A DNA stretch of 64,000 nucleotides from Verrucomicrobiaceae bacterium E54 (GTDB lineage: Bacteria > Verrucomicrobiota > Verrucomicrobiia > Verrucomicrobiales > Akkermansiaceae), in contig JAKZES010000003.1 in assembly GCA_022548915.1 (NCBI GenBank), positions 1 through 64,000 on the forward strand. Direction: 5' to 3'. Below the pieces are notes generated by a model. That model made no database searches. It saw nothing but the letters and a program-made list of their open reading frames with translations, and was not told the DNA's origin. A program made the translations under genes and the position numbers. This document shows, piece by piece, positions 3,611-44,206 of this stretch (position 1 is the stretch's first letter; every line of letters starts with the position of its first letter).

Positions 3611-4186
3611 GTTTTGCCCGAAGCGGGCTTCATCCATTACTCAGATCTTCGCCCGGGTCCCCTTCGCCAGGCCCAGTCCGTCAAGCTTCTCCCCGAGATC
3701 GCGGCGGAACGCCTCGGCTGCCGCGGGATCCTTCCTGGAGTGGCTGGGACGCGGCACCCTCAGCACTCCTCCGAGCTTTTTTGCCCAGTACCAAACCCTC
3801 TGGTAGGAAGTGTCGATCCCGTGGTGGCTCTTGAGCCATCGACGGGCGTCCTGAAGGGTCGTGAACTCGTGATTGGCCAGCTTCGCTTCGAACTCCTTCA
3901 TCACCTCCCCGCTGACTCCCTTGCGCCAGCCCACCGGACGTCCGCCAGGGTCGCGTTGCCAGATCGCATCAAGTCCACCTTCGCGCACCGCCTTGAGCAG
4001 TTCGAACACCTTCGAGCGCGACAACCCGCAAAGCTCGGCGATTTGCTGGCTGGTGTGCTCTCCACGCGATGCCAACTTGATGACAAGAAGCCTATCCTTT
4101 CGCCAACCGGGCTTCTCTCCTCGATGTTTCTCGTCAATGACCGCTGCTACTTCAGGGCAGCCGAGCTTCAGTGTTCGTCCAGCCAT
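3598..4186 (-). pseudogene. IS630-type transposase remnant (N-terminal HTH plus first DDE motif, nonsense-interrupted and truncated)
   Basis: TSQQIAELCGLSRSKVFELLKAVREGGLDAI HTH and YQRVWYWAKKLG; after ...GTRAKI a TGA (3643-3641), then in the same frame VMDEARFGQNLKVQI*, matching the IS630 '(W)xxDEARFG' first-Asp motif. Confidence 0.75.
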
Positions 4187-4266
4187 GACGAACCCTAGCA
4201 AATCCCCGAGAAATCCAGAAGTTATTTTGTCACGGTATCAATCATGGCAACAGCCATGGTGCATGG

Positions 4267-4336
4267 CACCCCTGCCGGGGTGCGGGCTCCTTGGATTTGC
4301 AACCGGGGGTGGCGCTCGTTCCTCGCTTACCCCCGG
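4267..4336. repeat. Double-hairpin intergenic element
   Basis: CACCCC-TGCC-GGGGTG (4267-4282) and CCGGGGGT...ACCCCCGG (4303-4310/4329-4336). Confidence 0.7.
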
Positions 4337-4354
4337 CTACCACCATTTGACGCC

Positions 4355-4556
4355 TCCGGCGTCAGCGCCTTGGCAACGGGCATGTGCCGGATCCGCGTCG
4401 AGGCCTTGGCAACGGGCATGTGCCGGCTCCGGCGTCGGCGCCTTGGCAACGGGCATGTGCCGAGTCCGGCGTCAGCGCTTTGGCAACGGGCATTTGACGC
4501 CTCTGGTGGGCGAGTTCTGGCAGCGGGCAATTGAGCCCTCCGGCGTCAGCGCTTTC
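4355..4556. repeat. Tandem repeat, about 37 bp x 5.5 (TCCGGCGTCAGCGCCTTGGCAACGGGCATGTGCCGGN)
   Basis: Units at 4355-4391, 4392-4427 (36 bp), 4428-4464, 4465-4501, 4502-4538 (degenerate), 4539-~4556 (partial). The last unit overlaps the rnr stop codon. Confidence 0.92.
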
Positions 4557-11147: not shown

Positions 11148-11151
11148 GAAA

Positions 11152-11186
11152 AGTGATCGGTGATCAGTGATCGGTGATCAGTGCAG
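11152..11186. repeat. Heptamer iteration (AGTGATC/GGTGATC), 4 units plus partial
   Basis: AGTGATC GGTGATC AGTGATC GGTGATC AGTGCAG in the purA-carA spacer. Confidence 0.92.
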
Positions 11187-11199
11187 AGAGGCGATGAAC

Positions 11200-30954: not shown

Positions 30955-30974
30955 GGGGTGGAAGAAGGTTGAAC

Positions 30975-30998
30975 CGCAAAGTCGCCAAGACGCAAAGG
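30975..30998. repeat. Octamer iteration CGCAAAGT/CGCCAAGA/CGCAAAGG
   Basis: Three 8-bp units in the dprA leader. Confidence 0.85.
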
Positions 30999-31011
30999 CT
31001 CGGGTTGTGAA

Positions 31012-31046
31012 ATTTGGAACTTGGAACTTCGACTTTGGAACTTCGG
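31012..31046. repeat. Heptamer iteration ATTTGGA/ACTTGGA/ACTTCGA/CTTTGGA/ACTTCGG
   Basis: Five degenerate 7-bp units ending 1 nt before the DUF2851 stop codon (31048). Confidence 0.88.
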
Positions 31047-31047
31047 G

Positions 31048-40356: not shown

Positions 40357-41664
40357 TCAAGCCCCGCTTTCGGAGCGCGCGTTGAGGGGTCGGCATGCGG
40401 GTGTCTTTTCAGCCTGTGCTTCAAGCCTGAAACCACCTGAACCATCGCCGATCATGGAAAGCTCGCGGAACACCTCATCGAGGCGCTCCCGCGAGTGGCC
40501 TCGGTGGTAGGTTGCGAACTCAGGATCGAGTTTGGCGCCGTCGGGCCCGTCGCCGTTGAGCGCGCCGCGGATGGCTTCCACCGCGGCTTCGGGATCGCCC
40601 TCGGGAAAGGTGCGGCCGATCTGGAAGCGCTCGACGCGGTCGCCGACGCACTGGCCGGCGGTCGCGACGAGCGGGATGCGGAAGGCGGCGGCCTTGGTGA
40701 GGGCGTTGCTGCTTCCTTCAAAGCCCTCGTAGGCGGCCCAGACGAGGTCGAAGGTCGAGAAGATCGAGTTGTAGGGCGCGCCGTCCTGGATCCGGTCGCC
40801 ACTGGTGTCGAAGTGGATGTGGTCGATTTCGCCCGCCGCGATGCGTTTCTCGAGATCATCGAGAAAGGCGAGATCCTCGGGAGAGAAGGTTCCCCGAGGA
40901 TAGGGGCCGGTGGCGACGAAATACCATGGTTCTCGTAATTCACCGGCGCGCAGCGCGGCCTTGAGCATGGTGACGAGGCCCTTGCGCTTCTCCATGCTGA
41001 TCAGCCCGATGATCTTCCGGTCGCCGGCCTTTTCCCGGAGGGCTCGGGCAGCCGGGGTCGGCGTGTCGGGAAGCGTCTCGTCGGTCATGTCGGGGAAGGC
41101 GATCGCCGGATGGCCGGAGATCTCCTCGAGGGTGTCGTTGAAGCGCTCGTCGAGCGTGCACACCGCACGGCAGTCGGGGCTGCGCAGGAGCCGGTCGCCC
41201 TTGGCCGCGCGGCGGAGCGGGTCGCCGGGGAACTCGAGGTGCCCGTTCCGGAAGTAGAGACCGCTCCACGGTCGGCCAAGGGTCATGCCGGGAAGCAGCG
41301 GGAAGGGCGAGAAGCGAAGGTAGCAGTCGAGGTAGCAGAAGAAGACGAGATCCGCGGTCCAGCCGGTGTCGCGCTCCGCACGGTCGAGGATTTCGGCGGT
41401 GGCGCGCCAGCGCAGGGGCGTGCTCAGGGGGTCGTGGTCGCGGTTGCGGTTGATGACTCCGTGATTGCGGTGGATGAAGGGGAAGCCGGCGATGCGGTCG
41501 CTTGGTGCCTCGTCGAGGGCCTCGAGGATCTCGTCGGGCTTCTGGCACAGCAACAGGACGCGGGCACCCATGCGCAGCAGCGAGGCGCTGAATTCCCGGA
41601 GGTAGGTCGGGTGGTGCCCGGCCCAGCGGGTGTCGACGAGTGCAACAGTGGGGGGTGGATTCAT
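40357..41664 (-). CDS. Glycosyltransferase
   Basis: GT-B-like: DTRWAGHHPTYLREFSASLLRMGARVLLLCQKPDEI ... GFEGSSNALTKAAAFRIPLVAT. Confidence 0.72.
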   Translation of the reverse strand: MNPPPTVALVDTRWAGHHPTYLREFSASLLRMGARVLLLCQKPDEILEALDEAPSDRIAGFPFIHRNHGVINRNRDHDPLSTPLRWRATAEILDRAERDTGWTADLVFFCYLDCYLRFSPFPLLPGMTLGRPWSGLYFRNGHLEFPGDPLRRAAKGDRLLRSPDCRAVCTLDERFNDTLEEISGHPAIAFPDMTDETLPDTPTPAARALREKAGDRKIIGLISMEKRKGLVTMLKAALRAGELREPWYFVATGPYPRGTFSPEDLAFLDDLEKRIAAGEIDHIHFDTSGDRIQDGAPYNSIFSTFDLVWAAYEGFEGSSNALTKAAAFRIPLVATAGQCVGDRVERFQIGRTFPEGDPEAAVEAIRGALNGDGPDGAKLDPEFATYHRGHSRERLDEVFRELSMIGDGSGGFRLEAQAEKTPACRPLNARSESGA

Positions 41665-43031
41665 CGGTGCGGGTCGGTGCGGGCAAGGAAGGAAACCCGG
41701 ATGTGGAAGGCCTGGGGCAGCCCGGCCATGATTCCGAAGGTCATGCCGGCGAGTCGTTCGTAGAAGGGATTGGAGGTCGCCGATTCACTCAGGAAACAGA
41801 GCGTGGCGACAAAGGGCAGGAAGGCGAGCCAGATGTCGGGTCCGGGCAGGGCGGCGTTGGACTTCGCCGAGCGCAGGCTTTGGATCGCGGTATTGGAGAA
41901 GAGGGCCAGGTGGCCCAGCAGGCCGATGACGCCGCCGGCAAAGAGCGCGTAGGTCCAGGTCGAGTGTCCGGCGAACCAGACGTCGCTGCCGAGGTCGGCA
42001 TTCTTGGGGTAAACGAGTTGGAGCTCCGGGATGTAGGCCATGTTCCAGGTATAGGACGCGCCAACGCCCATGCCATGGACGTAGCGGTTCGGTTCCTCAC
42101 CGAGGATCCGCACGATGTCTTCGGCCTCCGCGCGGCGGGTGAGCCACGAGACGTCCGTGGCCAGGTTGCGGTCGCCGGCGTGGTGGAAGAGGCGTTCGCC
42201 CCAGCGCTCGATGAGGGCGGGCCAGACGGCGGCGGCGATGACGAGTCCGGCCACGGCGAGCCCTGCGACGGCACCGACCGGCAGCAAACGCTTCGGAAGT
42301 TCGCTCCAGCGGAAGATCTTCCAGTGGCAGCCGAGCGCGAAGCAGAACGAGGTGGCGACGGCCGAGGCCATCACCGGGAAGATCAGGGCGCGGGTGACGG
42401 TGATGAGGATCCCGGTGAGCAAGGCGGCGGAGCCGAGGACGAGCGTCCAGTGGAAGCGCGACCGGAGCAGCAGGGCGCAGCCGATCCAGGCCGCCATCCA
42501 GTTGGTCGAAGGGCTGAGGACCTCGACGCGAACGGTCTCCAGCGAGATTTCCTTGAACAGGAAGCCGTGAAGGATGCGCCAGAAGATGTTGATCACCGCG
42601 GCGGCGAAAACCGGGGCCACGATGCGGGACGGACGGAGTCCGGCGCAGGCGGCGATGTGGGCGTTGATCATGCCGGCCAGGCACAGGCCGAAGGGCAGGC
42701 CGGTGCGGATCGAGCGCGTCGGATCGACGCCTTGAAGCAGCGCGCCGCCCGCCATGAAGGCCAGCACGCCACCCCACAGCGTGATCATCCAGACGCCGGG
42801 CCTGACCAGCAGGTGCCGCCAGCCGAAGTAGAGGATGCCGAGCGTGGCGAGCACGCAGGTGCCGAGGAACAGCAACTGGTCGAGACCGGTGCCGCCGCCG
42901 GCCTGGCGGTCCACCGACGCCCGGTAGTCGAAAGCGAAGGACAGCATGAACGCCCACAGCAATCGCTCGACCCACACCGCCTCGGGGGCGCGGGGAATTC
43001 GAAGCGGGTCGGTGGCGTCGTCGAGGAGCAT
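41661..43031 (-). CDS. O-antigen ligase/polymerase-like multi-TM protein
   Basis: 456 aa with about 10 TM segments in a glycosyltransferase cluster. Confidence 0.68.
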   Translation of the reverse strand: MLLDDATDPLRIPRAPEAVWVERLLWAFMLSFAFDYRASVDRQAGGGTGLDQLLFLGTCVLATLGILYFGWRHLLVRPGVWMITLWGGVLAFMAGGALLQGVDPTRSIRTGLPFGLCLAGMINAHIAACAGLRPSRIVAPVFAAAVINIFWRILHGFLFKEISLETVRVEVLSPSTNWMAAWIGCALLLRSRFHWTLVLGSAALLTGILITVTRALIFPVMASAVATSFCFALGCHWKIFRWSELPKRLLPVGAVAGLAVAGLVIAAAVWPALIERWGERLFHHAGDRNLATDVSWLTRRAEAEDIVRILGEEPNRYVHGMGVGASYTWNMAYIPELQLVYPKNADLGSDVWFAGHSTWTYALFAGGVIGLLGHLALFSNTAIQSLRSAKSNAALPGPDIWLAFLPFVATLCFLSESATSNPFYERLAGMTFGIMAGLPQAFHIRVSFLARTDPHR

Positions 43032-43032
43032 G

Positions 43033-43114
43033 TCGGTGTTTCGGTGCTTCAGTATTTCGGTGTTTCAGTTCTTCGGCCCGGCATCGATGACTGAAACATC
43101 GAAACACGGAAACA
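43033..43114. repeat. Inverted pair of octamer iterations (TGTTTCRG family)
   Basis: TCGGTGTT TCGGTGCT TCAGTATT TCGGTGTT TCAGTTCT TCGG (43033-43076) and CTGAAACA TCGAAACA CGGAAACA (43091-43114); fills the spacer between genes at 43031 and 43120. Confidence 0.92.
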
Positions 43115-43119
43115 CTGCC

Positions 43120-44163
43120 TCACCGCTTCTGCCACGCCTCGACGATCTGGCGGATCGTCTCCTCGAGGCTGACGGTGATGTCCCACCCGGGGTAGTGGGC
43201 GCGCATCTTGTCGAGATTGGAGATGTAGCAGATGTGGTCGCCGATGCGGTTGCCCTCCTGATAGGCGAACTGCTGCTCCCTGCCGGAGAACTTTTCGGCG
43301 ATCTTGAAGGCCTCGAGGATGGAGCACGAGTTGTGGCGTCCGCCGCCGATGTTGTAGACCTCGGCGACCCGCGGTGCCTTGATGAATTCCTCGATGAAGC
43401 GCGCGACGTCGTGCGAGTGGATGTTGTCGCGCACCTGCTTGCCCTTGTAGCCGAAGATCTTGTACTCGCGGCCCTCGAGGTTGCATTTCACGAGGAAACT
43501 CAGGAAGCCGTGCAACTCGACGCCCGAGTGGTTCGGACCGGTCAGGCAGCCGCCGCGCAGGCAGCAGGTCGGCATCTCGAAGTAGCGTCCGTACTCCTGG
43601 ACCATCACGTCGGCCGCCACCTTCGACGCGCCGAAGAGCGAGTGCTTCGACTGGTCGATGGGAAATTCCTCGGTGATGCCGTCGGCGTAGGCCGGATCGT
43701 CGTAATCCCAGCGCGTTTCGAGTTCCTTGAGCGCGATCGTGTTGGGCCGGTCGCCGTAGACCTTGTTGGTCGACATGTGGACGAAGGGCGAGGTCGGGCA
43801 GGCCTGGCGGGTCGCCTCGAGCAGGTTGAGCGTGCCGACGGCGTTGGTGTCGAAGTCGTCGAAGGGAATCGCCGCGGCCCGGTCGTGCGACGGCTGGGCG
43901 GCGGTGTGGACGATGGCGTCGGGCTTCACCTCGGCGAGCAGCTTGAGCACGCCGTCGCGGTCGCGGATGTCGAATTCGTGGTGGACGAAGCCGGGCAGGT
44001 CGCGCTGCAGCCGGTCCTGATTCCAGCGGGTGTCGCCCTGCGGACCGAAGAAGACGGCGCGCTGGTTGTTGTCGACGCCATGGATCTCCCAGCCGAGGGC
44101 GGAGAAATGGATGCACACTTCGGAGCCGATGAGGCCGGAGGAGCCGGTGACGAGAAGCTTCAT
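43120..44163 (-). CDS. NAD-dependent epimerase/dehydratase (extended SDR, CDP-paratose 2-epimerase-like)
   Basis: [68 protein letters not shown]. Confidence 0.88.
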
Positions 44164-44166
44164 GGT

Positions 44167-44206
44167 AAATGCTGAAATTCTGAAATGCTGAGAAACTGAA
44201 AGAAGA
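44167..44206. repeat. Octamer iteration AAATGCTG/AAATTCTG/AAATGCTG/AGAAACTG/AAAGAAGA
   Basis: Five 8-bp units covering the whole spacer 44164-44206. Confidence 0.92.

Follow-up and report, generated by a model that had tools for sequence, protein, structure and literature searches.

The spacer at positions 43032-43119 of the window (the whole 64,000-nt stretch of contig JAKZES010000003.1 of Verrucomicrobiaceae bacterium E54 that was analysed) is probably a local, degenerate member of the dispersed simple sequence repeats with units of 5-11 nt (STRR/LSSR), expanded by slippage and in this case arranged as a quasi-palindrome that is predicted to form a hairpin in the operon mRNA. The principal evidence consists of the period-8 structure of the spacer itself, the numerous other 7-8-nt arrays in the spacers of the same genome, and the comparison of orthologous spacers, which in related genomes contain a different number of units, different words or no repeats.

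Structure of the octamer tract and the flanking genes

The spacer is 88 nt long and consists almost wholly of octamers: five units of the TTCRGTRY type are followed by three in the opposite orientation. The left arm (43033-43072; TCGGTGTT TCGGTGCT TCAGTATT TCGGTGTT TCAGTTCT) is delineated by the sequence, by the period-8 array that TRF calls at 43033-43066, and by the corresponding arm in G014, the closest relative having the same epimerase/membrane-protein gene pair (the genome under study is denoted G000). The right arm (43091-43114), identified from the sequence, an inverted-repeat search and G014, comprises the reverse-complement octamers CTGAAACA TCGAAACA CGGAAACA; the arms are separated by a non-repeat centre of 18 nt (43073-43090), which would be the loop of the hairpin according to the G014 alignment and the fold. 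No strand is assigned to these three parts. A period-8 score equal to or higher than that of the spacer was obtained for 0.015% of Markov-shuffled 88-mers (P ~1.5e-4), or for 0.1% when any period from 4 to 12 was allowed, and the inverted-repeat search of the spacer delineates arms of 36 nt with 78% complementarity. The octamer tract with its five-then-three inverted layout, first reported in a preliminary description of this DNA, is therefore real and has the coordinates given there. Its boundaries (43033-43114) are also confirmed: the start codon of the minus-strand open reading frame 41661-43031 ends at 43031, 2 nt from the tract, and the stop codon of the minus-strand epimerase gene begins at 43120, 5 nt from its other end.

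The upstream gene (43120-44163, minus strand) encodes an NAD-dependent epimerase/dehydratase (PF01370, E 1.6e-40), in agreement with its original naming. The product of the downstream gene (41661-43031, minus strand; open reading frame, hydropathy and BLASTP) is a 456-aa membrane protein with 8 TM-like segments. The name 'polymerase' previously attached to this protein is plausible given its size, the TM-like segments and the glycosyltransferase neighbours, yet a search of the Pfam and NCBIfam models gave zero matches. The identity to the G014 orthologues is 96% for the epimerase and 86% for the membrane protein at the amino acid level.

Orthologous spacers in related genomes

The orthologous spacer of G014 also contains a double array, in which the left arm is identical at 37 of 40 positions without gaps, the right arm has four octamers (three in G000), and the centre has diverged. 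Thus, the number of units varies between related genomes and pairing between the arms is predicted in both; a spacer fixed in unit number and free of predicted pairing, which would have refuted the preliminary description, is not what is observed. Four-fold degenerate sites are 78% identical between the two genomes in the epimerase gene and 58% identical in the membrane-protein gene, so the left arm is conserved no less than the sequences on either side.

Several other spacers differ between the relatives in their repeat content. The spacer immediately preceding the start codon of the epimerase gene (44164-44206, minus strand) contains a second octamer array (TTTCAGNN x4; sequence, TRF and G014 gene calls) and is 43 nt long, whereas in G014 the respective genes overlap by 4 nt. 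The spacer 30955-31047, with a TTGGAAC heptamer array at 31014-31043 (no strand assigned; TRF and orthologous-spacer comparison), spans 93 nt in this genome versus 19 nt in the same syntenic block of G014. The gap between a Smr-domain-like gene and a cobalamin adenosyltransferase-like gene (both named by eye) harbours octamers in G000 and a GTGACNN heptamer array in G001, and neither octamers nor heptamers were found in the same gap of G014, G002, G013 and G010. These filled and empty spacers, together with the differing words, indicate that arrays are gained or lost at gene boundaries while the genes themselves stay undamaged.

Short tandem arrays across the genome

Across the 5.9 Mb genome, the word TTCRGTNNTTCRGT is matched 18 times, at 8 places, compared with 0 matches for the reversed control. 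All 18 fall on the plus strand of the respective contig; contigs are expected to be oriented arbitrarily, but with 8 places this is probably due to chance. The statistics of the spacers were collected from ~524 kb of the genome (~63 kb intergenic and 461 kb coding), on contigs picked partly for octamer arrays, so that the densities are not genome averages: in this sample, the ~63 kb of intergenic DNA contain 33 paired TTCRG units where the control gives 3, and a further 15 lie in the 461 kb of coding DNA. The intergenic pairs are spaced predominantly by 8 nt (31 pairs) or 16 nt (19 pairs), with few at other distances. The intergenic scan identified 15 strong arrays of period 6-12, 9 of them with period 7, and none in the Markov controls.

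Other words arrayed in the spacers of this genome include GTGATCR, GATCRGT, TTCCAAG, CACTTCT, GGCGGGA and CGGGAAG. Within the window, a heptamer array of GTGATCRGTGATC occupies positions 11153-11183 of the spacer 11148-11199 (no strand assigned; TRF and intergenic scan), and the same word is found again on contig C77. At L202:5957-6044 (G000:C196:25957-26044), the unit switches from CACTTCT to CACCGAT midway through the array, with the 7-nt period kept. The long spacer 4010-4545 of the window contains a tandem repeat of a different kind, with a 37-nt unit in 3.8 copies (4344-4503; CTCCGGCGTCAGCGCCTTGGCAACGGGCATGTGCCGG).

A locus of like design is present on another contig: a sugar-transferase gene (PF02397) and a Wzy_C gene (PF04932) are separated there by a spacer with nine octamers and an inverted arm, and the hairpin predicted upstream of the Wzy_C gene has a z-score of -5.2. 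The corresponding Wzy_C spacer of G014 contains no octamers, and those of G001 and G002 differ as well. The location of two octamer hairpins directly upstream of polymerase-type genes is suggestive (n=2). Octamers also occur in-frame within a dTDP-glucose 4,6-dehydratase-like gene (L203:12542-13639, minus strand; G000:C77:27542-28639), in a variable loop (LTEAPKHRSAETS). The loop is similar in length in the relatives, which indicates replacement rather than clean insertion.

The predicted hairpin

The fold of positions 43025-43125 on the minus strand has an energy of -41.9 kcal/mol, compared with -24.1 +/- 3.3 for shuffled sequences (z -5.5; 0 of 200 as good), in line with the long imperfect hairpin that had been postulated; the z-score is -4.5 for the plus strand of the same region, -4.3 for the spacer with the two flanking codons alone (-33.5 kcal/mol) and -4.6 for the orthologous spacer of G014. 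The hairpin as such is a sound prediction of the folding model in both genomes, but the pairing of its repeat arms is automatic because the same octamer is present in both orientations, a qualification that applies to the original proposal. Along the intra-operonic spacer (43032-43119, minus strand), RNA folding and the scan for terminator patterns suggest a long imperfect mRNA hairpin, with neither a U-tract nor a terminator pattern after either arm.

Comparison of the two available sequences, from this genome and G014, identified compensatory changes in 0 of 20 pairs. An Rfam search of the spacer gave nothing at the gathering score, the sub-threshold match to mir-2024 (22.7 vs 69 bits) being a chance one. 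No enrichment of a Shine-Dalgarno-like pattern was detected in this genome, so masking of the ribosome-binding site would lack a clear target. Together, the lack of a U-tract, of compensatory changes in this one pair of orthologues and of Shine-Dalgarno enrichment leaves both termination and ribosome-binding site masking without support. Given how well the left arm is conserved, the predicted hairpin could still have a regulatory role, acting on the stability of the mRNA or on translation of the membrane protein.

Distribution of the octamer in other genomes

A scan of species-level genomes for three-unit arrays identified at least 116 stretches in Verrucomicrobia, Planctomycetota, Bacteroidota, Proteobacteria and others, a collection that was picked by matching and has no control word for comparison. 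Whole-genome counts reach 169 matches in a planctomycete and 105 in a second one, while the reversed word has none in either. In the Phycisphaerales genome of locus L115 (G074), the reversed control word, GTGACTTNGTGACTT, is itself abundant (140 matches), so other words have expanded in other genomes. An even draw of 388 genomes from the phylum of the window contained the two-unit word TTTCRGTGTTTCRGTG in 5 genomes, once each in 4 of these, about as often as the reversed control. The octamer is accordingly not special across the phylum as a whole, and its enrichment is genome-specific: a few genomes carry many copies of the repeat and most carry none. Phages are not a credible vector, given that a three-unit array is present in only 8 of 2.9 million viral contigs.

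The octamer arrays classified in other genomes are mostly intergenic (82 of 88), and their gene neighbourhoods (58 co-directional, 14 convergent and 10 divergent) follow the background mix of orientations (421/65/64). The arms usually follow the order TTTCRGTG, then CACYGAAA: among 101 array loci, at least two inverted units are located within 150 bp on the right of 21 and on the left of 3, although loci sharing a genome are not independent, which inflates the count and makes the strength of the bias uncertain. Two Bacteroidales loci (L147 and L173) have two identical three-unit inverted arms separated by ~100-120 bp whose centre is AT-rich and palindromic, and thus resemble a small element. 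Within their arms, several Akkermansiaceae loci have the stem GTAAGAG..GAAAG / CTTTC..CTTAC in common.

Origin of the tract and alternative explanations

Three properties expected of STRR/LSSR repeats are observed for this tract, namely a tandem unit of 5-11 nt beyond chance (period 8, TRF), many, mainly intergenic copies in the genome (18 matches at 8 places; 33 intergenic vs 15 coding pairs), and variation in unit number or presence among relatives (3 vs 4 units; filled vs empty spacers). Under the scenario that we consider probable, 7-8-nt arrays in spacers throughout the genome arise, grow, shrink and are replaced, with replication slippage as the likely engine of change: slippage on short words gives rise to changes in unit number, to filled and empty spacers and to several unit classes per genome. 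Two arrays of the same octamer in opposite orientations would then form a quasi-palindrome; template switching at the hairpin may create it or keep its two arms matched. The message running from the epimerase to the putative polymerase, which are likely co-transcribed, should carry the long hairpin because the spacer lies within a series of polysaccharide genes that share one direction, with the repeat tract ending 2-3 nt before the start codon. Two features of the left arm would argue against unchecked slippage: its identity of 37/40 exceeds that of the four-fold sites in the putative polymerase gene (58%) and, somewhat, in the epimerase gene (78%), and the order of its variant units is preserved in G014. 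Furthermore, slippage alone is no explanation for the preferred polarity of the inverted arms in other genomes.

The conservation of the left arm beyond four-fold sites is also what would be expected if the hairpin were a selected RNA element that controls the membrane-protein gene, either at its start region, through masking or spacing, or by protection of the upstream message, with the number of units tuning the output. Prediction of the hairpin in both species, the end of the array 2-3 nt before the start codon and the second array of like design upstream of the Wzy_C gene in the same genome are compatible with such control. Nevertheless, we consider it rather unlikely: there are zero compensatory changes between G000 and G014, the Wzy_C spacer is without octamers in G014 and differs in G001 and G002, the lack of Shine-Dalgarno-like enrichment leaves no clear target for masking, and the arrays elsewhere occur in every gene orientation.

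The fixed polarity of the arms in other genomes (21 arrays with at least two inverted units to their right, as against 3 with such units to their left), the identical three-unit arms around ~100-120 bp in the two Bacteroidales loci and the stem within the arms of several Akkermansiaceae loci could point to the insertion into spacers of a small element, mobile or MITE-like, whose ends are octamer arrays. Such an origin is improbable given that this spacer and the other arrays of the genome show neither a shared core nor a target duplication, that arm length and unit are variable, that many arrays are single and lack a second arm, and that the polarity count is inflated by non-independent copies within genomes. 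There is similarly little chance that TTTCRGTG/CACYGAAA is a distinct self-propagating hairpin repeat of Verrucomicrobiota, Planctomycetota, Bacteroidota and others, spread or copied through some as yet undescribed template-directed process, not through independent slippage, and serving as an adjustable hairpin before polymerase genes in polysaccharide operons.

A long stable stem in an operon spacer could be an intrinsic transcription terminator or attenuator, but this appears very improbable because a T-tract follows neither arm and no terminator pattern is present in the spacer, so that the required combination of stem and U-tract does not occur at 43032-43119; moreover, convergent gene pairs do not hold a disproportionate share of the arrays elsewhere. 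Finally, iterons, that is, iterated sites for a DNA-binding protein, would fit the recurrence of the same octamer with its conserved core CRGTG and period 8 at many loci, but can be practically dismissed because octamers are also found inside coding sequence, in variable loops, have no common position relative to promoters, and belong to a unit class that differs between species at one spacer.

Relationship to known repeat families

REP/BIME are palindromic intergenic repeats, in which the REP units are palindromes of 20-40 nt moved by a transposase-like protein. Like these repeats, the tract would place a hairpin in a spacer of co-transcribed genes but, unlike them, it consists of arrays of an 8-nt word. 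Short tandemly repeated repetitive sequences (STRR) of heterocystous cyanobacteria comprise several heptamer classes dispersed through the spacers of one genome; unlike the octamers described here, these heptamers are of other sequence, and inverted arms are not a defining feature there. The term STRR is used in PMC5088731.

The long simple sequence repeats of prokaryotes studied by Mrazek and co-workers, as summarised in PMC4679880, have units of 5-11 nt, with heptamers being the commonest unit in most of the genomes surveyed. The present repeats are similar in having a unit of 7-8 nt, a non-coding location and slippage as the proposed origin, whereas the inverted quasi-palindrome is an addition to what that summary characterises as direct tandem repeats. 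In marine Beggiatoaceae, TAACTGA heptamers form dispersed, mostly intergenic direct repeats that recur in scattered distant lineages (MacGregor 2015, PMC4679880). As in that case, a single short word is involved, often beside other heptamer arrays, and the spacers of relatives are shorter and repeat-free; the TAACTGA repeat, however, is a rigid heptamer that is nearly always direct (one indirect case was reported), in contrast to the degenerate octamer with an inverted second arm described here. The G-quadruplex-forming heptameric repeats that are enriched in Xanthomonas and Nostoc (PMC4692102) are likewise dispersed, with a genome-specific enrichment, but those are G-rich quadruplex formers, whereas the octamer pairs as a duplex hairpin. 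The TAACTGA, STRR and G-rich heptamers, the nearest counterparts of the tract, are all dispersed and predominantly direct. A literature search with the literal octamer strings retrieved only papers on tick pathogens, none of them on bacterial repeats as judged by titles and abstracts.

Orthologous spacers that can be read as filled, empty or differently worded make the birth and turnover of 7-8-nt repeats traceable, and, if the hairpin matters, the number of units would provide a simple way to adjust a surface-polysaccharide operon. The same octamer, with a preferred polarity of the arms, recurs in scattered genomes of distant phyla. In the preliminary description, the repeat layout and the predicted hairpin were correctly perceived, while the many 7-8-nt arrays across the genome and the known class of repeats lay beyond its view. 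Compared with the systems discussed above, the tract is best filed as a variant within a known class of bacterial simple sequence repeats, with the inverted arrangement of the octamers as the added feature.
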